Source: Arenibacter sp. ARW7G5Y1 (GTDB lineage Bacteria > Bacteroidota > Bacteroidia > Flavobacteriales > Flavobacteriaceae). From it: a stretch of 64,000 bases of DNA. The stretch spans positions 71,233-135,232 of the forward strand of contig NZ_QJJZ01000001.1 of the NCBI RefSeq assembly GCF_003201775.1. The letters are read 5' to 3'. The notes under the pieces are model-generated. The model made no database searches, was not told the DNA's origin, and saw only the letters and a list, made by a program, of their open reading frames with translations. Positions within the stretch are counted from its first letter, which is position 1. Each line of letters begins with the position of its first letter. Both the position numbers and the translations under genes were made by a program. Below are positions 2 to 27,035 of the stretch, in pieces.

Positions 2-230
2 CCCAAGGATTACGATGGTAATAAAGAGTACCCCTTAGTGGTAAACCTGCATCATGGGGGTGGAATGGGGAGCGACAATCTAATTCAATTGGACGCAGCC
101 GATCCGTCCAAGCTATTATCGACCCCTGAAAACAGGGAAAAATATCCGGCTTTTATTTTAGTGCCCCAATGTCCCAAGAACTCTAGTTTTAGGGTGCTTC
201 CAGAGCATCAGGGCATTGCTGGGCCAATTT
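2..230 (+). repeat. direct repeat, left copy (esterase fragment)
   Basis: Bases 2-161 are identical to 26778-26937. By reading, the two copies then differ at 162, 167, 171, 176, 196 and 225, and similarity is lost after about 230. The repeat may extend left of the window; the base just before it differs (G versus A). Both copies are in the same orientation and bracket the whole polysaccharide locus. Confidence 0.9.
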
Positions 231-607
231 TTGAGGCTATGGAGTCCTTGGAGGAGGAGTATAATATAGACGAAAAGCGCCGCTACGTTATGGGGGTTTC
301 CCTTGGAGGTTATGGTACCTGGCATTTTATTGGTTCCCGACCAGACCTGTTTGCAGCGGCCATACCCATCTGCGGGGGAGGTGATGCGGATATGGCCGGT
401 AATATGGTCAATGTACCTATTTGGGCATTTCATGGTGAAAATGACAAAACTGTTCCTGTACACTTGACAAGGGACGTGATCAAGGCTGTTAGGGCTGCTG
501 GGGGAAGTCCCAAGTACACCGAGTATTCCGCGGGCCATGATATTTGGAACAGGGTGCATACCACTCCTGGATTGCTGGAGTGGCTTTTTGCGCAAAAAAA
601 GGATTGA
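2..607 (+). CDS. alpha/beta-hydrolase (esterase / prolyl-oligopeptidase type), 5' end outside window
   Basis: The reading frame is already open at base 2 (PKDYDGNKEYPLVVNLHHGG), so the start lies left of the window and only about the last 200 residues are seen. This is the C-terminal catalytic part of a serine hydrolase of the dienelactone-hydrolase/acetyl-esterase kind. It has an oxyanion-hole stretch NLHHGGG, the nucleophile elbow GVSLGGYG, an Asp in GENDKTVP and the catalytic His in SAGHDIW, so the triad is complete. Such esterases often remove acyl groups from polysaccharides, and the adjacent glycan locus fits that. Bases 2-230 are repeated near 26.8 kb in a truncated copy. It converges with the glycosidase at 804. 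Substrate unknown. Confidence 0.85.
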   Translation, partial: PKDYDGNKEYPLVVNLHHGGGMGSDNLIQLDAADPSKLLSTPENREKYPAFILVPQCPKNSSFRVLPEHQGIAGPIFEAMESLEEEYNIDEKRRYVMGVSLGGYGTWHFIGSRPDLFAAAIPICGGGDADMAGNMVNVPIWAFHGENDKTVPVHLTRDVIKAVRAAGGSPKYTEYSAGHDIWNRVHTTPGLLEWLFAQKKD

Positions 608-803
608 GGACTTATGTCCCTTAGTGAAAGTGTTTAGAATAAATGGTTAACAAACAGGTATAAATAAAATTAAGATAAACGCATAATTCTTATAATCTCT
701 TTAATTTTATATTAGCCTATAGATAGTCAAACCTGTGTTGATTTACTTCTTGGACAAATATCCCAGATTTAGGATCCAACTTTTACCTCAGCTACAGGAT
801 GGT

Positions 804-3530
804 TCAATAAAAAAGCCAATCCACTGCCTCCTTTTCCCCTTCTTCAATAAATCCAACATCGCGGGAGGTAATAATTTGTCCTGCATCGATAAAGCCCAAT
901 AGTAAGACCCTTCCTTTTTCCAAAGAGAACAAATGCTCCCCAATACCGAATTCGTAGGTATGGATATTGACCCTTGGTAAGTTTGTCAATTTCATGGCAT
1001 TGGCCAATACTACTTCGGCTTCACCCTGCATATTACCCGCGGCATTGGTTTCAAGGCTTGGGGGCAATAAAAATCGCTTCAGATCAGTGTTAAAATAGCC
1101 GACCACGAGTTTGACAGGCTTGGTGGTTTTGAAACGGAGTTGTGTTCCGTTTTCGATCTGTTCCTTGGCCATGAACCCCAAACCTGTTAAATTCTTGAGT
1201 TCAGGAGCCAATTTATGTATTTGGGAAATTTCGTCAACATAGGCACTTTTACCGGACTGTACCTTAAATGATTTGGGTTTTGTTCCCAAAAATTCAACAG
1301 TGGCAGTCTGCCACGGGGTAACGATTTCTTTTTTTACCTGTCCATTATCAGAGGCCTTCAGACGATTTAAATTGCGTTTAAAATTTGATAGCTCACGCTG
1401 GTAATGGGGCAACATTTCTTCCCACGTTTTGTTCTTGCCATTATCCCCTCCTATAGGGATCCTTCGCTGGGCGGTCTGCATACTGTTCGCATATAGGTAA
1501 TGGTCTTTTGTCAACTCTACAAGTTCTTCGTAATGTTCTATACTTTTTATTAAATGGGGTAAGGCAGTGTCCAGGTCGGTAAGTTTATTTGAATAACTAT
1601 AGCGCAACACCGAAATAGCTGCTTTTACTTTTTCCGAGAAGAAATTTGCAAATGCGCGGTAGGCGTAAATATCATTTTTTAAGCGCTCGAATTCCTTTAG
1701 GTTCAAAGATACATGGGATGAGGCCTTTTCGATGGCTTGGACAGCAATTTCCCCATGCTTCGTGATTTCGTTGATTATTTGTAGAGGAGTTTCTCCTTCA
1801 TGGGGTAGACCCTTCCATTCTTTTTCGGCATACTGCAAGAGGATTTCCCCTACAGGTCCACAGGACTCATAAAACCCAGGATAAACCCTCCATTTATATG
1901 GATTTACCAATTGACTTTCGAACATGCCCAATAAGAGGGTTTGTCTATTGCCCTCGGTGATTCCGAATCGCCGTAGGGTTTTTGGTGCTATCTCTCCCGA
2001 TTCCTCGTAGGCAGTGACTATCTGGCCCCCCGCATCCAAGTCGCTTCCATATTTATATGCCAATTGTTGGGCCCAATATTCGGTCTCCTTTTGTTTGTCC
2101 CTATCGGCTTTCCAGGCGTACCGTGCCCAAGCCTTGTACCAAATCCAATCCCGATCTATCTGTAAAAGTCGGGGTTCTGTTTTATCTGCCGTATAAGGCC
2201 AGTCCCAATATGATGCCTGAGGATACAAGTGTAAAGCGTTGGCACCATGAACGTTGTGCATGGCCTGAACACTTTTCTGTATAAAATCGGGAGAACCATA
2301 TCTAAAAGGCTCCAAATTGGCCAGAATATGCACATTTGAAATATGAATGGATCCCAAAGAACTTAAATTTTTATGTATTTCAGACCAAGGGCCTCTTGGT
2401 TCATAAGTTGTTAACGATTCCCCATTGTATTTATGTGTGGTATATAGATTTTTATATATTGGAAGAGCATGCTCCATGACCAAAGGGGCATCTGTATCAT
2501 GGGCACGTAAAATAATAGGGGGTTCGTCCGTTCTTCCCGAAGCCTTTAACCCGTCTTTGACTCCAGGTATAATGGTCTGGGTGAACCATTCTATGTCGTT
2601 TTCCTTACCGCTCATTGCCTCTCCCAAAGCTACCAAGAGACCTACATTTGGATATTTCTCAATAAAAGCTGCTACAGATTTCCGGGTATAATCTGCTATA
2701 ACTGGAATTATTGGCCGTTGCCTATCTTGTGTCTTAATTTGATGATGTTCCGCAAAGGGCTTGGAAACAATAATATTATAAAACATCTGAATGACCCATA
2801 TACCCCTTTTGTCAGCCTCTTCGGACAGGAATCGAAATATCTCTTCGTTCTTTTTAAAGGTTTCGTCACTTACTTCCACGGCATAGGGATAATCTTCCAG
2901 TTTTACCAGTGATGCAAAAGGATGTCCATTCCATAAATAAAGGGAATTTAGGCGGTTTTCTACCATCATATCCAAATAGTCCACCCATAATTCCTTGTCA
3001 TAAAACCAAGGAAAATTTTCAGGTGTATAGGGATATTCGTAGACCGTCCTACCAGGTAGGTATTCGGGTTTTTGAAGACCTATACAGGTACCCCTTAGTA
3101 CCATTTCTGGCCTGTCCGAAAAATCAATGCCAGTGGGAATTGTTTCTTCCTCTTCTATACGGGAAATTAGTTCTAGAATACCGTACAAGGCGCCAGACGA
3201 ATCAGTACCTTCAATATAAATTCTATTATCTTTTGAGCTTATCCTGAAACCTTCCTTTATCGATTTTTTTTCGGGAGCTTCTTCGTTCCGTGGATTGTTG
3301 CCATTTCTTTCCTCCTTGATAATAATGACCTGGTTGGTTACGTCATCCGCTATAGACTTTGATTCGGTAACGATGTAATCGTTTGCCTTTAGGAATGTTA
3401 CAAGTTTGGTGGTTCCCCAAACAATTCGAGGAGAGGTTGACTCGCTAACCACTGTTATTCTCTTTTCGTTTGAACAGGACGCTAAAAGACAAAGCGCCGA
3501 TAAAATAAGGTATCTCATATTTTTATTCAT
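804..3530 (-). CDS. alpha-glucuronidase-like glycoside hydrolase lipoprotein (GH67/GH115-type architecture)
   Basis: About 908 residues from the chosen start MNKNMRYLIL; an upstream ATG at 3554 would add eight residues before the signal peptide. The lipobox LLASC predicts a lipoprotein. Residues of about 25-150 resemble the small domain that precedes the barrel in GH20, GH67 and GH115 enzymes (the SSGALYGILELISRI stretch). A long catalytic region follows with WNGHPFASL and YWDWPY. I cannot name a catalytic pair with certainty. It is the last gene of the minus-strand glycan locus, after the sugar isomerase. By family resemblance it would remove uronic acid or a related sugar from oligosaccharides in the periplasm or at the surface; that is inference. 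A second protein with a similar layout lies at 48161. Confidence 0.6.
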   Translation of the reverse strand: MNKNMRYLILSALCLLASCSNEKRITVVSESTSPRIVWGTTKLVTFLKANDYIVTESKSIADDVTNQVIIIKEERNGNNPRNEEAPEKKSIKEGFRISSKDNRIYIEGTDSSGALYGILELISRIEEEETIPTGIDFSDRPEMVLRGTCIGLQKPEYLPGRTVYEYPYTPENFPWFYDKELWVDYLDMMVENRLNSLYLWNGHPFASLVKLEDYPYAVEVSDETFKKNEEIFRFLSEEADKRGIWVIQMFYNIIVSKPFAEHHQIKTQDRQRPIIPVIADYTRKSVAAFIEKYPNVGLLVALGEAMSGKENDIEWFTQTIIPGVKDGLKASGRTDEPPIILRAHDTDAPLVMEHALPIYKNLYTTHKYNGESLTTYEPRGPWSEIHKNLSSLGSIHISNVHILANLEPFRYGSPDFIQKSVQAMHNVHGANALHLYPQASYWDWPYTADKTEPRLLQIDRDWIWYKAWARYAWKADRDKQKETEYWAQQLAYKYGSDLDAGGQIVTAYEESGEIAPKTLRRFGITEGNRQTLLLGMFESQLVNPYKWRVYPGFYESCGPVGEILLQYAEKEWKGLPHEGETPLQIINEITKHGEIAVQAIEKASSHVSLNLKEFERLKNDIYAYRAFANFFSEKVKAAISVLRYSYSNKLTDLDTALPHLIKSIEHYEELVELTKDHYLYANSMQTAQRRIPIGGDNGKNKTWEEMLPHYQRELSNFKRNLNRLKASDNGQVKKEIVTPWQTATVEFLGTKPKSFKVQSGKSAYVDEISQIHKLAPELKNLTGLGFMAKEQIENGTQLRFKTTKPVKLVVGYFNTDLKRFLLPPSLETNAAGNMQGEAEVVLANAMKLTNLPRVNIHTYEFGIGEHLFSLEKGRVLLLGFIDAGQIITSRDVGFIEEGEKEAVDWLFY

Positions 3531-3621
3531 TTTCTGTAATCTCCATTTTTTCATTTATCATTCCAAGCTTATATTATAAATGGGCCTCCCTTAAATACCT
3601 CATCAAGTTAGTTTTAAAGGG

Positions 3622-4482
3622 CTATTTTTTTGCACGTTCCCAACATTCCTGTACTATTTCCTTATACAGCAAAGCCTGTTGCCAACGATCTCCTTCCTCT
3701 ATTAATTTCCCATGGTGTTCAACGGTTCTGGCATAAAAAATATCGGAACGAAGTAATTCCACGGCAAAACATAAATAGTCTCCCGGGCCAGCCGATTTTA
3801 GAAAACCTTGAAAAGAACGCATCCACATTTCCTTAAAATGAGCTACAAAACTTTGGTTTTTATAAGGATCAATATTTACTTGTATACTACCGGGATTTCC
3901 TATCCGACCATGAAGAAATCTGACGCGTTCAAATACAGGTGATATAAATGATAGCTTCTCCTCGAAATTGCCATAAACCATTTCTTGACCGGTATACCAA
4001 TGTGAAAAATCGCCATTAAACCTGATTTCGGGAAAACGCTTTACCAACTCAACAGTTCTGAACATATCTTGGGTAACTGTTGCCCGATGTGTTTCAATAT
4101 AAATAGGAAAATTGAACTTTTGGGAACTATTTAAAATATACTCTACCAATAAATCAGTCTGTTTGTCCGACTCCAATCCCCAACCTAAATGTATAGTCGC
4201 ACAATTATAGTCCTGACTTTTCCATTGTGGTATTAAATGATCTAGACCCCCAACCTCATTTACCCTTGCGTGGGCGGTTAAACCCAGGCCAAGTTCTTGG
4301 CAAAGTTCGGGTACACCATCTTGAATGCCCTGGAAGCCAGCTTTGGCAATGGCTTCATGTTTCTGCCGGTCTCCACCCCGAGGTCCTGTTGAAAATTCTG
4401 GGAGACCATCACAGTTCCCATAGTTAATATCTATTCGTAAGGCCGGAGCATTTGCAGTACCGTCATTGGTATTCATTATCAT
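3622..4482 (-). CDS. sugar phosphate isomerase/epimerase-like TIM-barrel protein
   Basis: 286 residues with no signal peptide, so probably cytoplasmic. The pattern is that of the xylose isomerase-like TIM barrel (AP endonuclease 2 family), with metal-ligand candidates Glu in YIETH, Asp in NGDFSHW, His in FLHGRIG and Glu in CFAVELL at the ends of successive strands. Members isomerise or epimerise keto sugars and inositols. Here it probably handles a monosaccharide released by the locus, such as rhamnose, xylose or an oxidised sugar. It lies between the GH2 enzyme and the alpha-glucuronidase-like gene on the same strand. The exact reaction cannot be read from sequence. Confidence 0.75.
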   Translation of the reverse strand: MIMNTNDGTANAPALRIDINYGNCDGLPEFSTGPRGGDRQKHEAIAKAGFQGIQDGVPELCQELGLGLTAHARVNEVGGLDHLIPQWKSQDYNCATIHLGWGLESDKQTDLLVEYILNSSQKFNFPIYIETHRATVTQDMFRTVELVKRFPEIRFNGDFSHWYTGQEMVYGNFEEKLSFISPVFERVRFLHGRIGNPGSIQVNIDPYKNQSFVAHFKEMWMRSFQGFLKSAGPGDYLCFAVELLRSDIFYARTVEHHGKLIEEGDRWQQALLYKEIVQECWERAKK

Positions 4483-4632: not shown

Positions 4633-7446
4633 TTACTTTACCGAAAAATCAAAATACAGCACCATATGTTTACTACGAAGGCGCCAGTCATCAAAAGTTC
4701 CATAGTCAAAGAAAATGTTTTTCTGGCCTGATGGGCCCAAGCGTTCCGGTTGGTTTGTTTTGCTGCCAATGGCCGGAATAGCCTGCATGAATGAAATATC
4801 TCCCTCTGGAAATGAAGGTGATGTACGGGCTTCATATACGCTTTGCGGGTATTGGGGTGTAAACAAACGTAGAAAAACGTCTTCTGTGGATGTGGCAACT
4901 AAAAAGTCCTGTTCTTTAGTTTTGATTTTTGCCCAATATAAATTTGAATGATACCCTTTAAACTCAGGATAGATTAGAGGCGAAACTCCTGTTATGGTAT
5001 TATTGTAGTCTTTTTGATGCCAGCCAAAAGATGCACCCTGCAATCGGTTTTTCCAAACTCTATAGGGCCCTTTACCTACCCACTCTACACCCGTCACTAG
5101 ATTTTCAGGGTAATCGAAATCAACACCCATGAAATCGAAATCAACATCATATTCTTCAGGTTTGTAATATAGCTCAAGCTTTGCCCAACCTGATGGAAAG
5201 AAGGTCCATGTAAATTCTTTCATTCTGGATCCTTTTTCAAAAGAAGCGACCAATTTTATATTCCCATCTTGTTTTATTGTTTCCAAGGACTTAAAAATCA
5301 CTTTTCCAGCACTTAGATGAGGTCCATTATTAAAAGGGATTTCCCCTATTGTATTCCTTACTTCCCTGAGTAATCCGTCTTTCTTTCCAATTTGATATTT
5401 AATACCTCCGGCTTCGATAGTGATAATTTCTTCAGTTTCAGATAAGGCCATCGTTCCGGTCTTCCCAGGATTGGCCATCAATTCGGCAATGGTTTCCTCC
5501 GGAATTTTAATTGGCCAACTCCAAGTATAAACTTCTGTGCCAAATTTATCTTTTGCCGTGATATACAAAGCGTCATTTTGAAACCAATTAGGAGGAAGTT
5601 CCAGCTGTAATTCTCCAATGCGCCCTGGTTCTATATCTGGAGAAACGGCCGTTCCGGTGATAGTATTCAAGCCTGTATTCTTATTGGGCAGGGGTAATTG
5701 GACTAGTTTCCAGGAAAAAGTTAATTCGTTCAAGTTGGTATAAAAATATTGGTTTTCAACCTGAAAGCTTCCATTGAAAGTTTCGGTTATATCCAGATCC
5801 TGAAATTGAATAGGTGCCCAAATCTCCTTTATGGCAAAATAACTGCCTTCCTTCTCATGAAACGGTCCTAGAATTCCATCGGCAGCCGAACCCTTGTATG
5901 TGTCAAGTTCCCCGGTATCGGTACGTTTAACACCTTCGTCTGCAAACACCCAAAGAAATCCCCCTGAAGCCTGTGGTTTTTCCCAGATCAAATCCCAGAA
6001 ATCACGTAATCCAGCTCCGCTTCCACCATCGTACATTCCATGTAGAAATTCTGTGGGAAAAACTACTTCATGGCCTTGCCAGTATGTTCCCACGCCATAA
6101 TTATAAGGACGGTAGTGTTCATTGGACATCCCGTTGAAGGTTTGCCAAGGGTGCACCACCTTGCGTTTTTGGATATCGTATTTGGGAAAAATTGTGTCCA
6201 ACTCGTAATTATGACCGCCTTCGTTACCATTGTTCCATAATATTATAGATGGATGGTTTACATCTCGAGTGACCATGGCCTTGACCAATTTATGTCCTAT
6301 GTCCGTATCATAGGAATTGTGCCAGCCGGCCAATTCATTTAGCACAAACAAGCCAAGGGAATCAGCAACATCCAAAAAGTGGGTATCTGGAGGGTAATGC
6401 GACATTCGAACCGCATTCATATTCATACTTTTAATTAATTTTACATCTTCAATACTTCGTTTTTTGCTCGAGGTCCTGCCTGCCGTAGGCCAAAAGGTAT
6501 GTCTATTGACCCCTTTGAACTTAATTTTTACCCCATTTACATATATGCCGTCGCGCTCACGAAGTTCAACAGTTCGGAAGCCGAACCGTTCGAAGACTTC
6601 ATGGACTACTTTTTTGTTCGATAATAGTTGAAATCTTACTTTATACAATTGCGGTTGCTCTGGATTCCAAGGCTTGATTTCAGTAAAGGTTGAATGGACC
6701 TGTACTTTGTTTTTCCCTTTGTTAATTTTTGCAGAAAACGGTTTCCCAATTTTCTTATTGGATAACGTAAACACTTGTGCCTCAACACTTAGTTGGGGTT
6801 TTGGCCCGTCTAAATAAATTTCCGCGGTAAAACTACCATTTGCCTTTGCATTAACGGAGGTTCTGTTTATGTTGGTCACCGGCTTCATTTGCAAATAAAC
6901 TGGTCGGAAAATCCCTCCAAAAATCCAAAAGTCGGCATATCGTTCTGCACGGTTAACAGATTCATTTTCGGAATGCTTTGCTACCTTAACTTCCAGTAAA
7001 TTATATTCTTCCCCAAAATTCAGCTGATCCGAAATATCATATGAAAACCTATAAAAAGCACCTTGATGAATTGGACCGGCGAGTTTGTTGTTAATTTTAA
7101 CCTGGGTATCGGTCATGGAACCTTCAAAGACAATTTCTACTTTTTGATTTTGCCATGAGGAAGGAACTTTAAATTCATATTTGTAAAAGCCAATTTCCTT
7201 ACCTCTTTCCTCGTCCTTGGCATGACCATAATTATAGCTACCAAATCCAAATTGCTCCCAATTGGAAGGGACAGGTATTGTAGTCCATTCCCCACTATTT
7301 CTTCCCTCGGAGACTTGAAACTGCCAGGTCTTTTCGTCCTGGTAGCCTTTTCCAGATAGGTATATTCTTTCTGTTTCTGCGGTTTGGCAGAAAACAATTG
7401 AATTGAAAAAAACTAAAATAATAGTTAAGTAAATGGTAATACGCAT
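4633..7446 (-). CDS. GH2 beta-galactosidase-type glycoside hydrolase
   Basis: About 937 residues starting at MRITIYLTIILVF, which gives a clean signal peptide ending near FCQT. The longer frame to 7482 would overlap the upstream gene, whereas this start sits one base after its stop. It has the GH2 order: jelly-roll sugar-binding domain (about 30-190, with PVPSNWEQFGFGSYNYG), immunoglobulin-like domain, then a TIM barrel with the acid/base Glu409 in WNNGNEGGHN. Glu504 in FADEG is the likely nucleophile. A C-terminal LacZ-type domain contains VEWVGKGPYRVW. It removes a beta-linked sugar (galactose, glucuronic acid or other) from the non-reducing end. It appears translationally coupled to the GH78 gene. 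Confidence 0.88.
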   Translation of the reverse strand: MRITIYLTIILVFFNSIVFCQTAETERIYLSGKGYQDEKTWQFQVSEGRNSGEWTTIPVPSNWEQFGFGSYNYGHAKDEERGKEIGFYKYEFKVPSSWQNQKVEIVFEGSMTDTQVKINNKLAGPIHQGAFYRFSYDISDQLNFGEEYNLLEVKVAKHSENESVNRAERYADFWIFGGIFRPVYLQMKPVTNINRTSVNAKANGSFTAEIYLDGPKPQLSVEAQVFTLSNKKIGKPFSAKINKGKNKVQVHSTFTEIKPWNPEQPQLYKVRFQLLSNKKVVHEVFERFGFRTVELRERDGIYVNGVKIKFKGVNRHTFWPTAGRTSSKKRSIEDVKLIKSMNMNAVRMSHYPPDTHFLDVADSLGLFVLNELAGWHNSYDTDIGHKLVKAMVTRDVNHPSIILWNNGNEGGHNYELDTIFPKYDIQKRKVVHPWQTFNGMSNEHYRPYNYGVGTYWQGHEVVFPTEFLHGMYDGGSGAGLRDFWDLIWEKPQASGGFLWVFADEGVKRTDTGELDTYKGSAADGILGPFHEKEGSYFAIKEIWAPIQFQDLDITETFNGSFQVENQYFYTNLNELTFSWKLVQLPLPNKNTGLNTITGTAVSPDIEPGRIGELQLELPPNWFQNDALYITAKDKFGTEVYTWSWPIKIPEETIAELMANPGKTGTMALSETEEIITIEAGGIKYQIGKKDGLLREVRNTIGEIPFNNGPHLSAGKVIFKSLETIKQDGNIKLVASFEKGSRMKEFTWTFFPSGWAKLELYYKPEEYDVDFDFMGVDFDYPENLVTGVEWVGKGPYRVWKNRLQGASFGWHQKDYNNTITGVSPLIYPEFKGYHSNLYWAKIKTKEQDFLVATSTEDVFLRLFTPQYPQSVYEARTSPSFPEGDISFMQAIPAIGSKTNQPERLGPSGQKNIFFDYGTFDDWRLRSKHMVLYFDFSVK

Positions 7447-7447
7447 A

Positions 7448-11398: not shown

Positions 11399-12154
11399 TT
11401 AAACCGATAATTCCTTATTTCTTTCACCATCTTCCACAAAAGGTTCTGCCCAATATAAGGGTGATCCGTCTTTCTTTAAAATAGGTTCGGGAGAATATTG
11501 TAGCAACAAAACCCGTCTTGCCTTGTTGGTACGGTTTGGACCGCTTTTATGAAAACAAGTGCTTGAAAATAGTGCCACATCTCCTGCATTTAGAATGGCC
11601 GGCACCCCTGGATTATCCCCAAAGTAACCTACTTTGTCGTTCGTTTCCGTATCGAGTTTATGATCTATACGGTCTTTAACTCCAGCGTCTTTGTATGGTA
11701 ACAGGTATACCGTACCATTCTCTTCGGTTACATCGTCTAAGGGACACCAAATGGAAAGGTATTGACAATGGTCGAAATCAAGGTAGCCTGAATCTTGGTG
11801 CCAGGAGAATCTAGTTCTCTTGTCCGCACCCTTAACTACAAATTGCTCCAAGAAGAGATATACATTATCACCTAATATTTTTCTTGTAATTTCCTCTAAT
11901 GTCTCACTAAATATGAGGTCTTGCATGGCCTGACTTTCCTTATACCGAAGGGCGATGAAATACCGCCTACCTTTGTGGTTTATCTCATCCATTTCAACCC
12001 CCTTGCGTCCCATTTCTTCATCTTTTTCGAGCATGAATTTTTGGCAATCTTTTCGCAAACGTTCAATTAGTGCCTGAGGAATTATATTCTTTAAGATACA
12101 GAACCCATCTTCCTTGTAATTTTTTAATTGTTCCTCTGATAATATTGTTTTCAT
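11399..12154 (-). CDS. phytanoyl-CoA dioxygenase (PhyH) family Fe(II)/2-oxoglutarate oxygenase
   Basis: 251 residues, no signal peptide, cytoplasmic. The double-stranded beta-helix ligands are visible: the HxD motif in WHQDSGYLD, the distal His in FHKSGPNRTNKARR, and an Arg just after it to hold 2-oxoglutarate. Members hydroxylate small molecules, including methylated or lipid-linked substrates. A PhyH gene within a polysaccharide locus suggests oxidation of a modified sugar, for instance O-demethylation, but nothing in the sequence proves that. It lies between GH31 and the symporter on the same strand. Confidence 0.85.
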   Translation of the reverse strand: MKTILSEEQLKNYKEDGFCILKNIIPQALIERLRKDCQKFMLEKDEEMGRKGVEMDEINHKGRRYFIALRYKESQAMQDLIFSETLEEITRKILGDNVYLFLEQFVVKGADKRTRFSWHQDSGYLDFDHCQYLSIWCPLDDVTEENGTVYLLPYKDAGVKDRIDHKLDTETNDKVGYFGDNPGVPAILNAGDVALFSSTCFHKSGPNRTNKARRVLLLQYSPEPILKKDGSPLYWAEPFVEDGERNKELSV

Positions 12155-17523: not shown

Positions 17524-20500
17524 TTATTGAGCAACGCCCAATAATCGAACAAAATCATTGTTAGCAGCTATCAAAAGGCCTTTCTTGGGGTTTTTGTTTT
17601 TTCCTATGATAATCGATTTCATTTTTTTTACATCACCGGGAATATGTAATCCTGAAGTATAATTCTTTATGGGTTCGAAATTCCCAGATCCATCTCCTTT
17701 CAAAAACAAGCCAGTTCCTGCATCATTGCGCGGAGTTTCCACTTCGGAATTAAATAGGTTTCCTGCTATCACCAGGTCATTTAATCCATCTCCATCAAAG
17801 TCGTCATAAAGGGAGCCAAAAACTGAAGACACCTGAGCCTCCAAGGGCATTTTTTTAAGTTCAAAACCATCACTTTTGTTTATAAGAATACTGTTTGAAA
17901 ATGTATGGGCAAGGTAATGTGTTGCTTTCTCCAACGATTGTCTATCGTATACGTCTTCTAAGGTCGCCGCGGCAAAGGAAGTGTAATCTTTGAATTTTTT
18001 CTTTAAGGAAGGTATTTGCTGGGTAGAACATTCCTTGCCCCTTAAAGGGAAAAGTGTATCATTTTGATAAAAACTTAGCACTATGTCAAGCTCCCCATTG
18101 TTATCGAAATCACTGGAATATAGATTGAATGGAGCCCTTGGCTTTGCTTTGTATTTATAATTTTCCCCTAGGTTGCCCAAAACATAGTCCAATACCCCAT
18201 CATTGTTTATATCGGCCTCTGAAATGGAAAACCACCAACCATTGCTTTTTTCCAGAATTGGGTCACCTTCTACTTTAACAAGTTTGCCCGCCTTGTTCTG
18301 AAATACAGTAATAGGCATCCATTCTCCTACGAGAATCAAATCCTGCGTTCCGTCATTATTCTGATCGGACCACAAAGCGTCTGTAACCATACCTGGATAT
18401 TCCAGCTCAGGTCCATGGGTAGATGTTATATCCTTAAAATTACCATTTACATTTTCGAGCAAGTAACTACGTCCAGACCGTGGATATTGCCCTGGTAGCA
18501 AACGGCCTCCAACAAATAGGTCCAAATCGCCATCTTTATCAAAATCATTGGCTTTTACGACACCTCCACTGGAAGTCATAATGGGCAATGCCGTTTTTGA
18601 CCTACTTAACTGGCCCTTCCCGTCATTGAGATACAACCGATCTTGGTAATACATATCGCCTATGGGCATTTCATTGCCACCACTTACCACATAGAGATCT
18701 TGGTCGCCATCGTTGTCGGCATCAAAAAAAAGGGCATCTATATCCTCTTGAAATTTGTCATCAACCATTGCTTTTTGGTACAACTTGCTAAAGGTCTCAT
18801 CGTTGTTTTGAAGATATATGGCCCCTTCATAACCCTTGGCACCGCCTATAAAGAAATCTTGTAATCCATCATTATTAATATCACCTACGGCTAGGGCGGG
18901 TCCAAAAGTGGACATTTTGTGCGGTAGAAGAACTTCTCTTTCAAAATCATCAAATCCGTTTTCCATATGCTCATGTACTATTCCGCTTTCCACAGTTCTA
19001 TCAAAAAAGATAGTATTGTTATCTGTTGTTTGTTTGGGAGTGGGCATTATTGCATCTTGGTAATCCAAAACTACCAACTGGTCTGATTCAAGGTTCCTTA
19101 GTTCTGATATTTTGCCATCTGGCCAATTCACCTGTAAAAGATCTATTTTGGCATTTTTGCCCAGTCCAAAATGTAGATTGTGATCAATACTCGATTGATA
19201 GCCACGAGTAACCTGTTGCTCCAAGAATTGTTTACCGTCAGCCGATTGTAGCATTACTTTTGCACCAATAGCATTTAGATTTTGGTGTTTGCCTTTCAAT
19301 TGGACCGTTAAATATCGATTATCGGTCAATTTAGAAGCATTATTTTTGTAAATATGAGCCACCTCGTCAATATTATTGACAATTAAATCCATATCGCCGT
19401 CATTGTCCAAATCGGCATAGGCGGCCCCATTGGAATAGGAGGGTAACTGTACGCCCCACAGGTCGTTCATCTTTTCAAAATGTAGACCATTGGTATTTTT
19501 ATAAACTGGGTTTACCGCTATTTCCGGTGGTATGAAGCCAAGGATTTCCTTGACCAAGGTTGGTATGTCTGGCTGAATTTTATTCATTTCAGTTTGAATC
19601 CTTTCCCTTCTATAGTTGTCGTAATCCTTATTGTTTGTATTTTTTCTTATACCGTTGGTTACAAATAAGTCCTTATATCCATCATTATCGAGATCAACAA
19701 ATAGGGGTGCCCAACTCCAATCGGTACTTGACAAACCTGCCATTGGTGCAATATCCGAAAAGGTTCCGTTGCCATTGTTGAGCTGAAGTGTATTGCGCAT
19801 GTACTGATAATGTCCTCCTACCCTGGTCAATACTTCAAAGGCTTTTGGGTTCATGGAGGCCATATTCGTTTTGCTACCAAAATTGGTTGAAGATTTCATA
19901 TCTACCACAAAAAGGTCTTGCCACCCGTCATTGTCTATATCAGCCATATCCACGCCCATTGAAGAGGAGGAGATATGGTTCATGGCTTGTAATGCATCTT
20001 CTTTTAACTTGCCATCGCCCAAATTTCGATATAAAAAATCGCGACCCAAAAAATCGTTGCATACGTAAATATCGGGTATTCCATTATTGCTCAAATCACC
20101 AATGGCAATACCAAGGCCATCTCCCAACACGGACTGATCGATGCCTAGGGATGCTCCTATCTCCGTATAATATCCATCATCATTTCTATACAGCTTGTCC
20201 GCAGTGTCAGTATCGTTTTCATACGCAGCTATCGGTTTGGAAAGTTCCCTAACAGGGTCCACTGCATGATTAAGCAAGTACATATCAAGGTCACCATCCT
20301 GATCGTAATCAAAAAATGAGGACTGAATGGAGTTGGCACTATCATTTAATCCATATTCCTTGGCTTTCTCTGTAAATGTATGGTCACCATTGTTTACATA
20401 TAAAAGGTTGGTTCTAAGTTGCGGTTGCAACCTTCCCGATCGGCATAGGTAGATATCTAAAAATCCATCTTGATTTATATCAACCATGGTAACACCCGTT

Positions 20501-20874
20501 TTCCAACCTGGAATAGAATCCAATCCTGAGCCATTGGTGATGTCCTTAAATTTAAAATTCCCTTGATTTAAATATAATTTGCCAGATTTTTGATTCGAAC
20601 TTAAATAGATATCAATAAGTCCATCGTTATCAATATCACCAACTGCCACTCCACCACCATTATAAAAATTAGTATAAGTAAGAACATTATCGTGATCGCT
20701 ATACCCTTCTTTTATATCGTTTGAAAAGAAAATGCCCGTTTCGTTCGCATCAATCAGTTCAAGTAAAGTAGTTGCACCTTGATTAGGGCCACTGCAGGCA
20801 TTGATTAATAATATGCTTGGCACCAAAAGGTAAAGAACTAAATTTTTATTTGATCTAATTATCATAGCAATCAT
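17524..20874 (-). CDS. FG-GAP/VCBS repeat lipoprotein with ASPIC/UnbV domain (CRTAC1-like)
   Basis: 1116 residues with a lipobox LLINAC. Many calcium-binding blade motifs of the type DxDxDGxxDI are present, for example DIDNDGLIDIYL, DINQDGFLDIYL and DLDNDGDMDLIV, forming two beta-propeller blocks (about 40-500 and 640-1090). Between them, at about 520-610, lies the ASPIC/UnbV region with AIGAKVMLQSADGK and VNWPDGK. Such proteins are common beside SusCD in marine Bacteroidota and probably act at the cell surface in glycan binding or assembly; the precise role is unknown. It follows susD after a possible terminator hairpin. Confidence 0.88.
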   Translation of the reverse strand: MIAMIIRSNKNLVLYLLVPSILLINACSGPNQGATTLLELIDANETGIFFSNDIKEGYSDHDNVLTYTNFYNGGGVAVGDIDNDGLIDIYLSSNQKSGKLYLNQGNFKFKDITNGSGLDSIPGWKTGVTMVDINQDGFLDIYLCRSGRLQPQLRTNLLYVNNGDHTFTEKAKEYGLNDSANSIQSSFFDYDQDGDLDMYLLNHAVDPVRELSKPIAAYENDTDTADKLYRNDDGYYTEIGASLGIDQSVLGDGLGIAIGDLSNNGIPDIYVCNDFLGRDFLYRNLGDGKLKEDALQAMNHISSSSMGVDMADIDNDGWQDLFVVDMKSSTNFGSKTNMASMNPKAFEVLTRVGGHYQYMRNTLQLNNGNGTFSDIAPMAGLSSTDWSWAPLFVDLDNDGYKDLFVTNGIRKNTNNKDYDNYRRERIQTEMNKIQPDIPTLVKEILGFIPPEIAVNPVYKNTNGLHFEKMNDLWGVQLPSYSNGAAYADLDNDGDMDLIVNNIDEVAHIYKNNASKLTDNRYLTVQLKGKHQNLNAIGAKVMLQSADGKQFLEQQVTRGYQSSIDHNLHFGLGKNAKIDLLQVNWPDGKISELRNLESDQLVVLDYQDAIMPTPKQTTDNNTIFFDRTVESGIVHEHMENGFDDFEREVLLPHKMSTFGPALAVGDINNDGLQDFFIGGAKGYEGAIYLQNNDETFSKLYQKAMVDDKFQEDIDALFFDADNDGDQDLYVVSGGNEMPIGDMYYQDRLYLNDGKGQLSRSKTALPIMTSSGGVVKANDFDKDGDLDLFVGGRLLPGQYPRSGRSYLLENVNGNFKDITSTHGPELEYPGMVTDALWSDQNNDGTQDLILVGEWMPITVFQNKAGKLVKVEGDPILEKSNGWWFSISEADINNDGVLDYVLGNLGENYKYKAKPRAPFNLYSSDFDNNGELDIVLSFYQNDTLFPLRGKECSTQQIPSLKKKFKDYTSFAAATLEDVYDRQSLEKATHYLAHTFSNSILINKSDGFELKKMPLEAQVSSVFGSLYDDFDGDGLNDLVIAGNLFNSEVETPRNDAGTGLFLKGDGSGNFEPIKNYTSGLHIPGDVKKMKSIIIGKNKNPKKGLLIAANNDFVRLLGVAQ

Positions 20875-21011: not shown

Positions 21012-22520
21012 TTAATTATCCGGATATCCAGGGTTTTGCTCTAAATTTGGATTAAGCGCAACTTGCAAAGCTGGAATTGGATACACCCATCTATAGTCTT
21101 CGGACACAGCTTTTTTCTCGGTCCAAGTCCCGCTTAGGAACGTACCAAAACGTATTTGGTCTGTTCTTCTAATGGCATCCCATTGCATTTCACGTCCCCT
21201 TTCAGCTAAAATATCATCTAAAGTTATCGATACTAGTGGCGTGGCATTTCGCTTATCCCTTAATTCGTTGATAATATCCAAAGCCGAATCGCTACTGGAC
21301 CCTCCCCTTAAGATAGCTTCTGCTTTCATTAAGACAACATCGCCTAGACGCAGAAAAACAAACTTGGTGTCCGCATCAGGGGAATTTTTCATCATTTTAA
21401 AGCCTTCGTTGGGGTCTGCACCAAGCAATTTTACATTTTTCTGGTAATCGATCCCTGATAGTTCTTCTCCATTTTTTTTGTACTGTTTTCCAACTAAAAT
21501 ACCCTGAGGAATTAGAACCGACTCATCCGCGGGGTCAAAGTCTGCCTCATTGAATACATATCCACTGGTACCAGGACCTTTACCCAATCTATCATCATCC
21601 GACTCATATAAATCGTACAATTCAGGGGTAATGGAAAACCCGTTCCAGCCACCTTGGTTAGATGACAAATAGGGTTGCCACAATTTTGACATATTATCTA
21701 TTGAAACGAAAATATTCTCCGTACCCTCTCCACGCCAATTGACAAAGTAATCATCGTCTAGTGCATAACCTGAGTTTATAATTTTATCGGCATTGGCTAT
21801 TACGTTGTTCATATCTTCAACATTGAACGAAAAAGTACCAGGTCCTTCAGACTCATAGACCGCTTTGTTTAAAGCAATTCGTGCCTGCAACGCATATACG
21901 GCTTCTTTAGTTGCGAAGTCGTGATTTGATGGTCCCAAACTTGGCAAATCGGCAACAGCTTCGTTCAAGTCTTGGATTACGAATTGCAAGGCTTCTTTTC
22001 TTGTATAAACTTTTGGGTCAATGGTAACGGGTTCATCAACCTGTCTTACGGGCACCACTCCAAAAAAGTCTAACAATTGCCACATGGCGAAAGCCCTAAG
22101 AAATTTTGCTTCCGCTACCTGAAGGTTGGAACCGCCATAAAAAATTACTTCAGAGGCGTTGAAAATATTTCGGTTCAGGCGTGACCAAACCGAATTTAGG
22201 TCTTCTTGGTTTGGAGTCCATTCATGTGTGTGAATTTGAATAAACCTACCGCCATTTGCCCAGTCGCCAGTGGTTCTTATGGGAGTAATCATCAAATCGG
22301 ATGGCATATTCTGCAAACCGCTAGATTGCTCATAGGTATTGTAGTTCCCGGCAAAGCTCCTATATAGGGCATTTAATATTTCTGTAGGATTGCCACCTTC
22401 CTCTTCGGGTATAATGGAATCAACATTATCAATCTCTAGATTGGTACAGCCAATAAAAAAGATACTGGCCACTATAGATGTGCTTAAAAATAATCCTGTT
22501 TTTATATTTAGAATTTTCAT
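21012..22520 (-). CDS. SusD/RagB family glycan-binding lipoprotein
   Basis: 502 residues. The signal peptide ends in the lipobox FFIGC, so it is an outer-membrane lipoprotein. The typical SusD arrangement is visible: N-terminal NALYRSFAGNY, VAEAKFLRAFAMWQLLDFFG near 135 (the conserved AEA.FLRA..Y motif), TPR-like helices, and a C-terminal REMQWDAIRRTDQIRFG plus YRWVYPIPALQVALNPNLEQ. It binds the target glycan and caps the adjacent SusC channel. The gap from susC is 16 bases. Confidence 0.96.
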   Translation of the reverse strand: MKILNIKTGLFLSTSIVASIFFIGCTNLEIDNVDSIIPEEEGGNPTEILNALYRSFAGNYNTYEQSSGLQNMPSDLMITPIRTTGDWANGGRFIQIHTHEWTPNQEDLNSVWSRLNRNIFNASEVIFYGGSNLQVAEAKFLRAFAMWQLLDFFGVVPVRQVDEPVTIDPKVYTRKEALQFVIQDLNEAVADLPSLGPSNHDFATKEAVYALQARIALNKAVYESEGPGTFSFNVEDMNNVIANADKIINSGYALDDDYFVNWRGEGTENIFVSIDNMSKLWQPYLSSNQGGWNGFSITPELYDLYESDDDRLGKGPGTSGYVFNEADFDPADESVLIPQGILVGKQYKKNGEELSGIDYQKNVKLLGADPNEGFKMMKNSPDADTKFVFLRLGDVVLMKAEAILRGGSSSDSALDIINELRDKRNATPLVSITLDDILAERGREMQWDAIRRTDQIRFGTFLSGTWTEKKAVSEDYRWVYPIPALQVALNPNLEQNPGYPDN

Positions 22521-22536: not shown

Positions 22537-25500
22537 TTAGAAACTTACATTAACACCTAAAAGAAAGGTCCTGGCTCTGGGATAAGAAGTATAGTCGATG
22601 CCCGCAGATGGCACCCCGTTATCGCTTCTGTTTGTATTTACTTCAGGATCTTGTCCGCTATAACCGGTAATTACGAATAAATTCTGTCCGGTGAGCGATA
22701 ATCTTACGGCCGAGAACGGTGAATTCTCATTGATATTAACTTTATAACCTAAGGTAACATCCTGTAATCGGACAAAATCGGCCTTTTCCAAGTATCTTGT
22801 AGAGACATTTACGGAACTAGTATTTCGTTCTTCACCAGTAAGTACTTCCAGAGGGGCGTTTCTACCACTTGATACGGCCGGGGCATGAAAGAAACTATTG
22901 GCTGTATTGCTATAAATAGAATGTCCAAATTGTCCGGCAAAAAAGATGTTAAGGTCAAAGTTTTTATAACGCAAAGTATTTGTCAGGGCCGCCGTGGCAG
23001 TGGGTAAGGGTTTATCACCCGTGAAACCGGTATCTCCATAAATAGCATTGCCATCTGAGTCGAAGCCTTCAAAACTTGGTAGGTAAAAGGCATAGAGCGG
23101 ATGTCCGTTCTGGATTCTTTCTACATTTATCCCTGATAAACCTTGACCTTTAATGCTGCCGGTCTCTAAAAATCCAAAATCAAAGTTTTCAACGGTATTT
23201 TCGTTAAAGGAGGCGTTACCGGCAATGGTCCAACCAAAATCATCATTCTGGATAGCGTCATAGGTCAAATCAAATTCAATTCCCTTATTTATAACATCGG
23301 CGTCGAGATTTCTCCAAACAAATGCTTGAGGGGCCGGTTCGGCAGCACTCAACTGGACAAGCATATCCGTTGTGGTCTTATTGTAATAATCAATACTCCC
23401 TCTCAGGCGGTTGTCCAGAAATCCAAATTCCAAACCAATGCTTGTTTGTTGGGTCTCCTCCCATTTAAGACCTTGGTTCTCAAAAGTTACTGTGGCCAAG
23501 CCGCCAGGGATAACTACTCCGTCTTGAACATTAAACGAAGGGGAACCATACCTTTGTCGCCTTGTGTAAAGGTCATGGGCAATATCTTGGTTTCCAGTAT
23601 TTCCCCATCCTGCCCTTAGGCTCAGATTTGAGAAAAAATCCGGGATAAAATCCTCTTGTGAAAGTTTCCATTTAAAAGCTAGGGAAGGAAAAGTACCATA
23701 GGCATAATCGCTACCAAATCTTGTGGACCCATCAATTCTTACTGTAGAAGTAAGGTAGTATTTTTGTTTATATGTTAAATTAATTCTTGTGAAATAGGAT
23801 TGAAGTTCGTCAATCGTTTTGAAAGTGTTGGAAACCGCGGTTAAATTGGCAGCTGTCATATTGTTAAGCATTAAATCTAGATCTGTTACCCTGAAATCTG
23901 CAGCGGCCATTGAATTTCCGGATGATTGAAACTTCTGATAGGAATATCCCAATACTGCATTAAGGTCAAGACCTATATCTTTAAAATCATGTTTTACCGT
24001 AAAGTAGTTTTCCCATAATAGGTTGTCTATTTCAATACTATTTATCGCAGCTCTACCATTATCTTCCTCCGCATTGACAACCGCAGCCACCAATTCACTT
24101 GAAAAGGCCGACTTTCTTGTGGACATGGACCTATCGATACCATATACGGTTTTGAATGAAAGCCACTCAAATAATTCTGCATCCGCACTAAAACTTCCCA
24201 AGAACTTTAAAGTATTGGAGAAATCTCTGGATAATTCAAGAAAAGCAACAGGATTTGGATTGTCCCGGGAAGGTTGATAAAGGGTGCCATCGGGATTATA
24301 AACCGGTCTGGTCGGATTGGTTTTCAAAGCACCCGCCAATAAGTCTCCTTGGTGATCTGCACTATCGGTTATTGGCACATTATCGTCATGAATGTTGGAA
24401 ATAGTCAGCTGTGTGGATATTTCCAAGCGATCGTTCAAAATCTTTTTATTGCCATTAAACCTTCCTGTCATTCTTTCAAGGCCATTTTCTTTAATTATGC
24501 CTTGCTGATCCGAATGACTAAAAGAAAAACGATAGTTGCCAGATTGGTTGCCTCCACCATAGGACAATTCATGGTTCTGTGATATGGCCGTTCTTAAGAT
24601 TTCATCTTGCCAATCGGTTTCGGCACCTTGATCAATATTTGGATCCGAACCACCTACCAATGAATAACCGGTTAAAAATTCTTGTGCATTTCCCACATCA
24701 TATTTCTTGGTAATTTCACTCATTCCGATCGAATAGGCATAGTTCAAACTACCTTTTCCACTTCCCTTTTTCGTGGTTATTATTACAACTCCGTTTGCAC
24801 CCCTAGATCCATATATAGCCGTAGCCGAGGCATCTTTCAAAATATCGATACTCGCAATATCATTCGGATTCATAAAATTCAAAGGGTTTTTTGGAGCCGT
24901 GCCCCCGGTACCTGGTACGTTTCCTCCATCAGATATATTGTCCCCTGAAATGGGAACCCCATCTATAACGAATAAAGGTTGGTTACCACTTCTTATAGAA
25001 CCTGTACCCCTTACCCGTATATTTATACCGCTGCCGGGTTCACCACTACTACTGGTAATTTGCACACCGGCCGATTTACCTTGAATTAATTGTTCCGGGG
25101 AGGAAATTACCCCCCCATTAAAGTCTTCTGCCTTAATAGAGGAAACCGCTCCAGTTGCATCACTTGCCTTAACTCCGCCATAACCAATGAGCACTACCTC
25201 GTCCAATCCGGTAGCATTTTCTTGAAGTACTACGTTTATGGTACTTTGCCCATTAAGTGGCACTTCCTTACTGTCGAAGCCAATATAGGAAATTGCTAAA
25301 ATTGCATTTTTATCCAAAATGGTAATAGAAAAGTTACCGTTAAAATCGGAGGTTACTCCGTTGGTGCTACCTTTTTCAATAATACTGGCTCCAGGGAGGG
25401 GAACTCCGGTTTCGTCCACAATTGTACCAGTAACGGTAAATCCTTGTTCAAAAACCGATTCTTTGAGATCGAATTTAGGGTGTGCGGCCGAAATCGATTG

Positions 25501-25551
25501 GATGGCAAGCACTGTGCCCATGAAAAGACTGTAAAGGAATTTCATTTTCAT
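22537..25551 (-). CDS. SusC/RagA family TonB-dependent outer membrane receptor
   Basis: 1004 residues with a signal peptide. A carboxypeptidase-regulatory-like domain (VTGTIVDETGVPLPGASI, about 38-110) comes first, then a TonB-box-like segment VVLIGYG, the plug (RVRGTGSIRSGNQPLFVIDG, KDASATAIYGSRGANGV) and a long beta-barrel ending in LGVNVSF. It imports oligosaccharides energised by TonB. There is no extra N-terminal anti-sigma signalling domain, so regulation probably goes through the divergent AraC protein. It heads the minus-strand operon. Confidence 0.97.
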   Translation of the reverse strand: MKMKFLYSLFMGTVLAIQSISAAHPKFDLKESVFEQGFTVTGTIVDETGVPLPGASIIEKGSTNGVTSDFNGNFSITILDKNAILAISYIGFDSKEVPLNGQSTINVVLQENATGLDEVVLIGYGGVKASDATGAVSSIKAEDFNGGVISSPEQLIQGKSAGVQITSSSGEPGSGINIRVRGTGSIRSGNQPLFVIDGVPISGDNISDGGNVPGTGGTAPKNPLNFMNPNDIASIDILKDASATAIYGSRGANGVVIITTKKGSGKGSLNYAYSIGMSEITKKYDVGNAQEFLTGYSLVGGSDPNIDQGAETDWQDEILRTAISQNHELSYGGGNQSGNYRFSFSHSDQQGIIKENGLERMTGRFNGNKKILNDRLEISTQLTISNIHDDNVPITDSADHQGDLLAGALKTNPTRPVYNPDGTLYQPSRDNPNPVAFLELSRDFSNTLKFLGSFSADAELFEWLSFKTVYGIDRSMSTRKSAFSSELVAAVVNAEEDNGRAAINSIEIDNLLWENYFTVKHDFKDIGLDLNAVLGYSYQKFQSSGNSMAAADFRVTDLDLMLNNMTAANLTAVSNTFKTIDELQSYFTRINLTYKQKYYLTSTVRIDGSTRFGSDYAYGTFPSLAFKWKLSQEDFIPDFFSNLSLRAGWGNTGNQDIAHDLYTRRQRYGSPSFNVQDGVVIPGGLATVTFENQGLKWEETQQTSIGLEFGFLDNRLRGSIDYYNKTTTDMLVQLSAAEPAPQAFVWRNLDADVINKGIEFDLTYDAIQNDDFGWTIAGNASFNENTVENFDFGFLETGSIKGQGLSGINVERIQNGHPLYAFYLPSFEGFDSDGNAIYGDTGFTGDKPLPTATAALTNTLRYKNFDLNIFFAGQFGHSIYSNTANSFFHAPAVSSGRNAPLEVLTGEERNTSSVNVSTRYLEKADFVRLQDVTLGYKVNINENSPFSAVRLSLTGQNLFVITGYSGQDPEVNTNRSDNGVPSAGIDYTSYPRARTFLLGVNVSF

Positions 25552-25639
25552 CTAGTTTGTTATTTGGTTAATTGGTTATTATTTTTACCGATTCGTGACG
25601 GCTTTCCGCAGACAATTACATGATGTAAGTGTTACGGTT

Positions 25640-25672: not shown

Positions 25673-25729
25673 ATAAAGGTTGTATTTTTAAACATTGGTC
25701 GATTCTATAAACATTTTTTTGACTATTTT

Positions 25730-25737
25730 TAGCTTTG
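25730..25737 (+). promoter_or_regulatory. possible -7 element of the AraC gene
   Basis: TAGCTTTG matches the Bacteroidota consensus TAnnTTTG and lies about 48 bases before the ATG at 25785. No good -33 box is seen at the usual distance. Its position downstream of the other in-frame ATG at 25695 favours the later start. Confidence 0.3.
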
Positions 25738-25784
25738 GCAATGACTTTGGTAACTCAAGGCATGCGATTTCAAACGTACTCATT

Positions 25785-26726
25785 ATGGAAAAAGCAGAAT
25801 TGCAAAGGACAGTGAATACCAAAAGTAAAACTGGAAATTTTGGAGTTTGGTGGCACAAGGCCAATCCTGGCCCATTAAAAAATATTCCATATATAAATCA
25901 ATTTGGAAGCATGAGATTCACCAAGGTTCAAATGGATGAAAATATGAAACCCCATTTGAACGATGGTATCGAAATACATTATGTAACAAGTGGAAAATAC
26001 GATTGGGTAGTAGAGAGAAACAATATTGAACTATTACCTGACGATTTATCGATTACGGCACCTTGGCATTGGAATGGTAGTCCTACTGGAAAAATGGTTA
26101 TTGGACACTTCAATTGGCTTATCATAAAACCTTTGGAGTTTAGTCCGGACAAACAATTGAATTTGGGCTCATGGACAAAATTGTCCAAGAGTTTTCAGAA
26201 AAGCCTAGGTAAGTTGATAGCGGACGAACACAACGTTGTTCTTCACAAGGCAAAGGACTTTAGGAAATATTTCGAGGCCCTTAACGCTGAGCTTTCCACC
26301 CAAAAGGAAGGATATACAATTATGGTTGGAAATATTGTTGAGAACCTGCTAATTGACCTGCATCGTCATTTGTCCCTAAGAAGTCAGAAAATTGAGGAAG
26401 ATGATAATTTTATATCACAGCTGATACAAAAGGTAATGGATGATCTAAACAAAAAGTGGATAATTGAAGACCTTGCCCATCATTTTGGTATGGGTAAAAC
26501 TAAATTTACCTATAAGGTCAAGCGCCTTACCGGATATCCCCCAAACAGCTTTATAATCAATCTGAAAATAGAGAAGGCCATTAAACTTATTACGGAGGCA
26601 AATGGTATGTCTCTTACCAATATTGCTTATACCTGTGGTTTCTCCTCGCTGCAACATTTCACTTCTTCTTTTACCCAGCGTACAGGAATGTGTCCAAGCA
26701 AATTTAACGACTATGAATTTACCTAA
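25785..26726 (+). CDS. AraC family transcriptional regulator
   Basis: 313 residues from the start MEKAELQ. An ATG 90 bases upstream is open but adds a sequence that does not look like a family N-terminus. Residues of about 25-130 form a cupin-like sensor (DGIEIHYVTSGKYDWVV). The C-terminal 100 residues are the two helix-turn-helix motifs, with KKWIIEDLAHHFGMGKTKF and LTNIAYTCGFSSLQHFTSSF. It is divergent from susC and most likely activates the glycan locus in response to a released sugar. Its 3' end is 27 bases from the repeated esterase fragment. Confidence 0.92.
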   Translation: MEKAELQRTVNTKSKTGNFGVWWHKANPGPLKNIPYINQFGSMRFTKVQMDENMKPHLNDGIEIHYVTSGKYDWVVERNNIELLPDDLSITAPWHWNGSPTGKMVIGHFNWLIIKPLEFSPDKQLNLGSWTKLSKSFQKSLGKLIADEHNVVLHKAKDFRKYFEALNAELSTQKEGYTIMVGNIVENLLIDLHRHLSLRSQKIEEDDNFISQLIQKVMDDLNKKWIIEDLAHHFGMGKTKFTYKVKRLTGYPPNSFIINLKIEKAIKLITEANGMSLTNIAYTCGFSSLQHFTSSFTQRTGMCPSKFNDYEFT

Positions 26727-26753
26727 AATTTCATTGGAATGAAATGCTACTAG

Positions 26754-27035
26754 TTCAAAATTCCACCTATACTTGTACCCAAGGATTACGATGGTAATAA
26801 AGAGTACCCCTTAGTGGTAAACCTGCATCATGGGGGTGGAATGGGGAGCGACAATCTAATTCAATTGGACGCAGCCGATCCGTCCAAGCTATTATCGACC
26901 CCTGAAAACAGGGAAAAATATCCGGCTTTTATTTTAGAGCCCGAATATCCCCAGAACTCTAGTTTTAGGGTACTTCCAGAGCATCAGGGCATTGCTGGGC
27001 TAATTTCTAGTTGCGCTGTTGTAAAAGGGAGATGA
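26754..27035 (+). pseudogene. truncated esterase copy (direct repeat, right copy 26778-27006)
   Basis: Bases 26778-27006 repeat 2-230 of the window, the first 160 bases perfectly. The frame runs from just after a stop at 26751 (first codons FKIPPILVPKDYDG), then leaves homology after GIAGL and ends at a stop at 27033-27035. The catalytic Ser, Asp and His are all missing, so it cannot be an active hydrolase. Two of the conserved positions in LVPQCPK have changed to LEPEYPQ, which suggests relaxed selection. Confidence 0.85.

Follow-up and report, generated by a model that had tools for sequence, protein, structure and literature searches.

A SusCD-type polysaccharide locus between direct repeats of an esterase gene in Arenibacter sp. 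ARW7G5Y1, probably gained by recombination within that gene

The esterase gene, its repeated fragment and the enclosed locus

The DNA described here, termed the window, is a stretch of 64,000 nucleotides (C1:71233-135232, where C1 and C2 denote contigs) from the 5.73-Mb genome of Arenibacter sp. ARW7G5Y1, which is assembled in 46 contigs. The window opens inside an esterase gene that starts further to the left, at C1:70223, and that encodes a hydrophobic N-terminal half (by inspection) followed by a C-terminal alpha/beta hydrolase domain (PF00326, PF01738 in Pfam). An internal fragment of the same gene recurs to the right, and the interval between the copies (window 608-26777) is occupied by 13 genes, comprising one complete SusCD locus and its AraC regulator (Table 1). 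Adjacent SusC and SusD homologs, linked to GH2, rhamnosidase-like, GH31, and alpha-galacturonidase enzymes and to the AraC regulator, identify this interval as a SusCD-type polysaccharide utilization locus (PUL), and the enzyme set suggests that its predicted substrate is probably a rhamnogalacturonan-like (pectin-like) glycan. The GC content of the PUL is 40.1% (39.5% in a genome sample) and its tetranucleotide use is typical. A foreign composition was thus considered and rejected, GC and tetranucleotides lying within background and 17 of 30 background segments scoring below the PUL, so that composition gives no sign of recent transfer.

Table 1. Features at the left end of the window, in window coordinates
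Feature	Coordinates	Strand	Basis or remark
Left direct repeat, part of left esterase copy	2..230	+	Identical to right copy over 2-161
Esterase, 3' part (left copy)	2..607	+	C-terminal 201 aa of alpha/beta-hydrolase
Alpha-D-galacturonidase	804..3554	-	NF049878, 1522 bits (cut-off 1300)
Protein without Pfam or NCBIfam match	3622..4482	-	Homologs of 60-71% in 4 of 21 fetched GH31 loci
GH2 glycosidase	4633..7482	-	Nearest model exo-beta-1,4-galactosidase BT4156, 980 bits, below cut-off 1700
Alpha-L-rhamnosidase-like glycosidase	7448..9652	-	PF21209, PF17389; PDB 3cih, 890.8 bits
Sodium:solute symporter	9751..11334	-	PF00474
PhyH-family dioxygenase	11399..12154	-	PF05721
GH31 glycosidase	12212..14500	-	PF01055; PDB 5f7c
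L-rhamnose mutarotase (rhaM) domain protein	14526..15320	-	PF05336
GH141 insertion domain protein	15500..17467	-	PF21231
FG-GAP / ASPIC-UnbV repeat protein	17524..20874	-	PF13517, PF07593
SusD	21012..22520	-	PF07980, PF14322
SusC	22537..25551	-	TIGR04056, 713.7 bits
AraC-family regulator, divergent from SusC	25695..26726	+	PF12833
Right direct repeat (right esterase copy)	26778..27006	+	Internal 229-bp esterase fragment; no gene start, no GxSxG stretch
Decayed scrap of gene X	27091..27266	+	77% DNA identity to G005 461263-461436; X aa 388-419 at 62.5%
Sulfatase, right-hand landmark	27561..29144	+	PF00884; long match in 10 of 18 genus genomes, this one included
Scrap of second sulfatase gene Y	29229..29384	+	Gene Y follows the sulfatase in relatives

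Sequence comparison places the direct repeat at 229 nt and 97% identity with a spacing of 26776, and it is the only direct-repeat family in window 1-30000 at a threshold of at least 40 nt. The copies are identical over 160 bases (window 2-161), and all six differences, at window 162, 167, 171, 176, 196, and 225, lie within the last 69 bases. Under random placement of six differences across 229 sites, all of them would lie in the last 69 with a probability of 6.4e-4, and a clean run of at least 160 would arise anywhere with a probability of 0.0044; the identical part therefore exceeds chance, and it fits gene conversion or a nearby crossover. Within the 69-base tail, the right copy is 91% identical to the left, compared with 74% and 81% for the left copy against the esterase genes of two relatives, genomes G005 and G009, respectively. 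At window 196 and 225 the right copy keeps the base found in both relatives and the left copy has changed; at 162, 167, 171, and 176 it is the right copy that has changed, the left copy agreeing with G005 and G009, and all four changes alter an amino acid. Because derived and ancestral-looking bases are mixed in this manner, a simple copy of the present left gene is insufficient to explain the right one. The right copy starts abruptly inside the esterase gene, 51 bp behind the AraC gene, and ends before the GVSLGG (GxSxG) stretch that is present in the left copy and that we take to be the catalytic motif. The 5' part of the gene was found only once in the genome, with no second copy. Since direct repeats of comparable size and identity are present elsewhere (935 kb of the genome compared with itself), the repeat by itself is not unique; the notable point is that its two copies enclose an entire PUL.

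A run of 97 N (C1:71136-71232) lies immediately left of the window, and beyond it stands an exact further copy of window 1-98 (C1:71038-71135). This apparent third esterase copy was rejected as a scaffold join, because the only other N run in the 880 kb scanned (C1:55000-535000 and C2:1-400000) carries the identical signature, that is, 97 N flanked by exactly 98 bases repeated on the two sides (two of two gaps). The other gap (C2:335481-335577) sits in a repeat whose near-identical second copy is about 4 kb distant, and group II intron matches occur in both repeat copies of that region. Scaffold gaps at repeats can lengthen genes, as is seen in the esterase: closing the overlap reduces its open reading frame from 538 to 473 codons (65 fewer), and 473 aa is the length of the orthologs in G005 and G009. 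A break at a true repeat of 160 identical bases would be the expected behavior of a de Bruijn-type assembler, the type assumed here. Elsewhere on C2, direct repeats 20.7 kb apart (C2:308668-309147 and 329362-329796) bracket another apparent SusCD locus, whose genes are SusC- and SusD-like by size and N-terminus only; RF02001 group II intron matches lie in both repeats, so intron copies bracket that locus.

The original prediction had described much of this architecture. Its account of the repeat (identity of bases 2-161 and 26778-26937, with six differences up to 230/27006) is confirmed by the repeat comparison, and its description of an intact left copy and a right copy cut off before the catalytic residues holds, the left copy closing to 473 aa and the right one stopping before GVSLGG; the complete SusCD locus with AraC that it placed between them is recovered by Pfam and NCBIfam matches. 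Its proposal that the clean 160 bases call for homogenization or recency accords with the random-placement odds, and the contrary possibility it had raised, that the right copy is an old unrelated duplicate, disagrees with the closeness of the two copies even in the tail. The alignment with sequence left of the window that it had recommended yielded the assembly artefact described above.

The locus and its flanks in relatives

The PUL is confined to this genome among the relatives compared. Its GH31 was detected in one of 60 genomes searched, namely this one, and was absent from 17 of 17 other genomes of the genus and from 59 of 59 other relatives (E<=1e-100); the best SusC outside this genome reaches 46% identity, and in the slot regions fetched from nine relatives no PUL protein was matched at 50% identity or more across 35% of its length. 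The nearest GH31 proteins, about 63% identical, come from other genera (16 loci; 6 of 397 family genomes, this one included), and no donor was found in that search of 16 loci and 397 family genomes. Echinicola pacifica (L110), Pleomorphovibrio marinus (L120), and Belliella filtrata (L123) possess much of the gene set, including an AraC gene divergent from the neighboring SusC; much of it is also present in Leeuwenhoekiella marinoflava (L111), there with no SusCD match in the fetched stretch. The alpha-galacturonidase has matches in only three other loci of 21 (L113, L118, and L124) and the FG-GAP protein in none of the 21 fetched GH31 loci. Neither of these two was found to accompany the remaining genes in the most similar PULs from other genera, so that the full extent of the PUL as a single unit is provisional. 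The esterase matched in none of the 21 fetched PUL loci of other genera, stretches only 4-22 kb long, so that nothing suggests that it belongs to the PUL. A search of known plasmids with window 26400-27300 as the DNA query gave no match.

The esterase, by contrast with the PUL, has counterparts at the same place in the genus, of which 18 genomes were compared (this one included). A close copy, defined by its 5' part at 79% or more, is present in three of the 18, namely this genome, G005, and G009, with one each at the locus; G005 and G009 also contain weaker matches (63-72%) at other places. The repeat region has relatives of 69-73% elsewhere in G002, G003, G005, G009, G016, and G017, and short matches in G005, G006, and G009. 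In G005 the order is esterase, gene X, and sulfatase, with 1.8 kb from esterase to sulfatase and no PUL; gene X, a SASA-type acetylesterase (PF03629), adjoins the sulfatase in relatives. This order parallels that of the right copy, X scrap, and sulfatase in the window, where the X scrap lies 85 bases behind the right copy. In G009 other genes separate the single close esterase from the sulfatase, which is 9.7 kb away, and again there is no PUL. A gene block left of the sulfatase is common to seven species, measuring approximately 9-11 kb in G002, G013, G014, G015, G016, and G017 and, interrupted, approximately 16.6 kb in G006; in G016 the esterase is reduced to its last 46 bases, which stand at the left edge of the block beside the sulfatase. 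The esterase has thus probably long stood at the left edge of a sulfatase PUL. In the present genome that older PUL is eroded to one sulfatase with scraps of X and of the second sulfatase gene on its two sides, and the sulfatase looks like its last survivor.

The wider neighborhood is variable. A tRNA-Met gene is found near the end of contig C6, and we infer that it belongs left of C1, across the contig gap, because C1:269-388 is similar to the sequence that follows the 3' part of tRNA-Met in G016, and the end of C6 matches the sequence that immediately precedes it. Between tRNA-Met and sulfatase lie further PUL-type genes (SusD, GH2, and a hybrid two-component regulator) as well as ten genes that are 86-94% identical in G009. 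A block at C1:48322-69933 is common with G017 (86-90%, with one interruption) and is followed here by the esterase and the PUL; in G017 the same left block and the sulfatase are 33 kb apart, with other genes between them and with neither a close esterase copy nor the PUL. Within the common block, a PP2C phosphatase, a papain-family peptidase, and a Ser/Thr kinase with WG repeats are encoded close together (C1:48399-55967), and a PcfJ-like gene (C1:62907-64439) has no match at the corresponding place in G017. Immediately to the left of the esterase, G005 carries an integrative mobilizable element (IME) that encodes an integrase and a relaxase and is bounded by 47-bp copies of the 3' end of tRNA-Met; in the same interval, G017 encodes a relaxase and a protein sharing 97% identity with that integrase. 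The interval between tRNA-Met and sulfatase looks like a place of frequent gain and loss. The G005 element, which spans 26.8 to 3.7 kb left of the sulfatase on C1, also encodes a Fic protein.

Origin of the bracketing repeat

A partial direct repeat of one gene stands at both edges of the PUL, with one copy intact, and relatives carry that gene singly at the locus with no insert (G005; also G009), which agrees with the original prediction that strains with a single esterase and no PUL would point to gain or loss here. We favor, with a probability of roughly 0.52, a lineage-specific gain of the PUL via recombination in the esterase gene, the right-hand stub being an integration scar. The grounds for this reading are that the left copy is whole, that the right copy starts abruptly, that the X scrap follows it, and that the differences are found only right of base 161, where they fit a crossover or conversion boundary.

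The direction, donor, and recombination route of such a gain can be proposed as follows. On the incoming DNA, the PUL would have been linked to part of the same esterase gene; that part would have paired with the resident copy, and the PUL would have been added, giving in a single step, from left to right, an intact and possibly hybrid esterase, the PUL, the internal stub, and then the eroded sulfatase PUL. Two forms of the event may be envisaged. In form (a), a circularized fragment with its closure point inside the esterase (window 26777/26778) would have entered by a single crossover, accompanied by gene conversion over approximately 160 bp; a plain single crossover alone gives no 160 identical bases unless the donor nearly equaled the resident sequence or conversion occurred. 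In form (b), integration would have been homologous on one side only, with the crossover close to base 161 and the second end joined illegitimately at base 2, such that the left parts of both copies would be resident sequence. A deletion between the stub and X would have taken place before or after integration. When compared with G005 and G009 at all informative sites, the left copy looked mosaic (MaxChi 20.2; 2 of 5000 permutations); with third positions only, the result was not significant (534 of 5000), and the best break fell at window 34/35, whereas form (b) would place it at base 161.

The strongest alternative, which we consider rather unlikely although worth retaining, is that the stub is older than the PUL: a tandem duplication of the esterase would have been followed by decay of the second copy into the X scrap, by an unrelated insertion of the PUL between the copies, and finally by gene conversion from the intact copy, which would have restored identity over 160 bases. 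The four amino-acid-changing differences in the tail, at sites where the left copy, G005, and G009 agree, are what decay would produce, and the well-diverged X scrap makes erosion at the right edge look older than the identical stretch. This history nevertheless requires duplication, decay, insertion exactly between the copies, and conversion, and a tandem close copy occurs in no relative, the three genomes of 18 with a close 5' part having one each.

Much less probable is that the PUL is a CIME-like cargo, with no integrase of its own, that relies on the esterase repeats, or on att sites inside them, and is still excisable as a 26.8-kb circle. Direct repeats do bracket the cargo, and an integrase and a relaxase are encoded just left of the esterase in G005 and in the same interval in G017; the G005 IME, however, sits between tRNA-Met copies and not in the esterase, and the idea that the esterase is the att site of the neighboring IME was rejected for that reason. 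Att cores are typically short, unlike the 160-bp identity at a gene fragment seen here. No integrase, transposase, relaxase, or conjugation gene was recognized by Pfam among the 13 genes between the repeats, as would mark an ICE or IME, and the repeats are themselves esterase sequence, the only IME whose repeats were found (that of G005) using tRNA-Met. The junction expected after excision, in which a truncated esterase adjoins window 27007, was absent from 39 relatives, with at most 14 candidate stretches scored per genome. Recombination through the 160 identical bases could remove 26,776 bp, and excision by homologous recombination is possible in principle, but the repeat is more readily understood as a scar left by a gain than as a functional excision site. 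The removal of about 26.8 kb as a circle that the original prediction envisaged is accordingly unsupported, with neither an integrase nor a relaxase among 19 window proteins (Pfam) and no excision junction in the relatives; of the gain or loss through the repeat that it also put forward, gain is favored by the distribution of GH31 in the genus and loss through the repeat finds no excision scar.

An equally low probability is assigned to loss rather than gain, according to which the PUL would be ancestral at this site and would have been lost from other species, in some of them through the repeat. The native-like composition of the PUL agrees with this, and losses are made plausible by the differing gene content of the interval among the species compared. 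On the other hand, the GH31 occurs in none of the 17 other genus genomes, and recombination through the repeat would leave a truncated esterase, so that the full-length genes of G005 and G009 are not excision products. Just as doubtful is the broader notion that the esterase is a recurrent landing site for PULs in the genus, where circles or fragments would enter and leave via RecA with no integrase and the stub would keep the PUL reversible. Least probable of all is an assembly error in which the right copy, or its identical first part, was made by the assembler at an unresolved repeat: the scaffold gap exactly at the left edge of the left copy does show the assembler in difficulty, but a true repeat longer than about 97 bases would presumably cause just such a break, the other N gap likewise sits in a near-identical repeat, and the right copy has six differences of its own and its own flanks on both sides.

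Relation to known systems

A gain with a partial duplication at its edge is a kind of event already known, and the present locus is a clear example of such genome exchange. In conjugation experiments with E. coli, 56 of 60 integrants were positive in a PCR diagnostic of partial target-gene duplication, and sequencing of 14 showed duplications of 109-950 bp, which were ascribed to a single crossover of a circularized molecule lacking part of the gene (Amarir-Bouhram et al., 2011; PMC3240628). True one-sided events numbered 4 of 60 and were accompanied by deletions (PMC3240628), a result that favors the circle of form (a). The insert is flanked in both cases by a direct partial duplication of the target gene, here of 229 bp. 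The experiments involved laboratory E. coli, a small plasmid, and clones chosen as Lac-minus (PMC3240628), whereas at the present locus one copy is intact, the insert is a 26-kb metabolic locus, and the route can only be proposed.

Two further systems offer partial parallels. In Vibrio T6SS clusters, effector modules are displaced by a process likened to homology-facilitated illegitimate recombination, for which a one-anchor model has been put forward (PMC5361080). As in Arenibacter, part of one conserved gene is the proposed anchor, new cargo enters, and older remnants are shifted behind it; the class of genes is different, and successive events were proposed there against one event here. In Bacteroides ovatus and B. 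xylanisolvens, PULs are exchanged between core-gene "nodes" with no signature of mobile elements, an exchange ascribed to chromosomal conjugation and recombination (PMC8845570). There, too, whole PULs vary at fixed places between conserved genes, mostly with no mobile genes, but recombination is suggested to involve two flanking nodes and the sections consulted describe no partial duplication, whereas a stub was left at the esterase. Natural competence is reported not to have been observed in Bacteroidetes (PMC8845570), which weighs against a transformation route for the present PUL. The tRNA-Met IME of G005 shares the genomic interval and adjoins the same esterase; it differs in having an integrase, a relaxase, and 47-bp tRNA repeats, and the esterase is not its target.

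A literature search of limited depth found no described case in which fragments of a single gene flank a PUL. The movement of whole PULs with no adjacent mobile genes is only partly understood, and the locus described here presents one probable PUL gain that can be read to the base, with relatives that have no PUL, a likely scar, and a possible crossover or conversion boundary.
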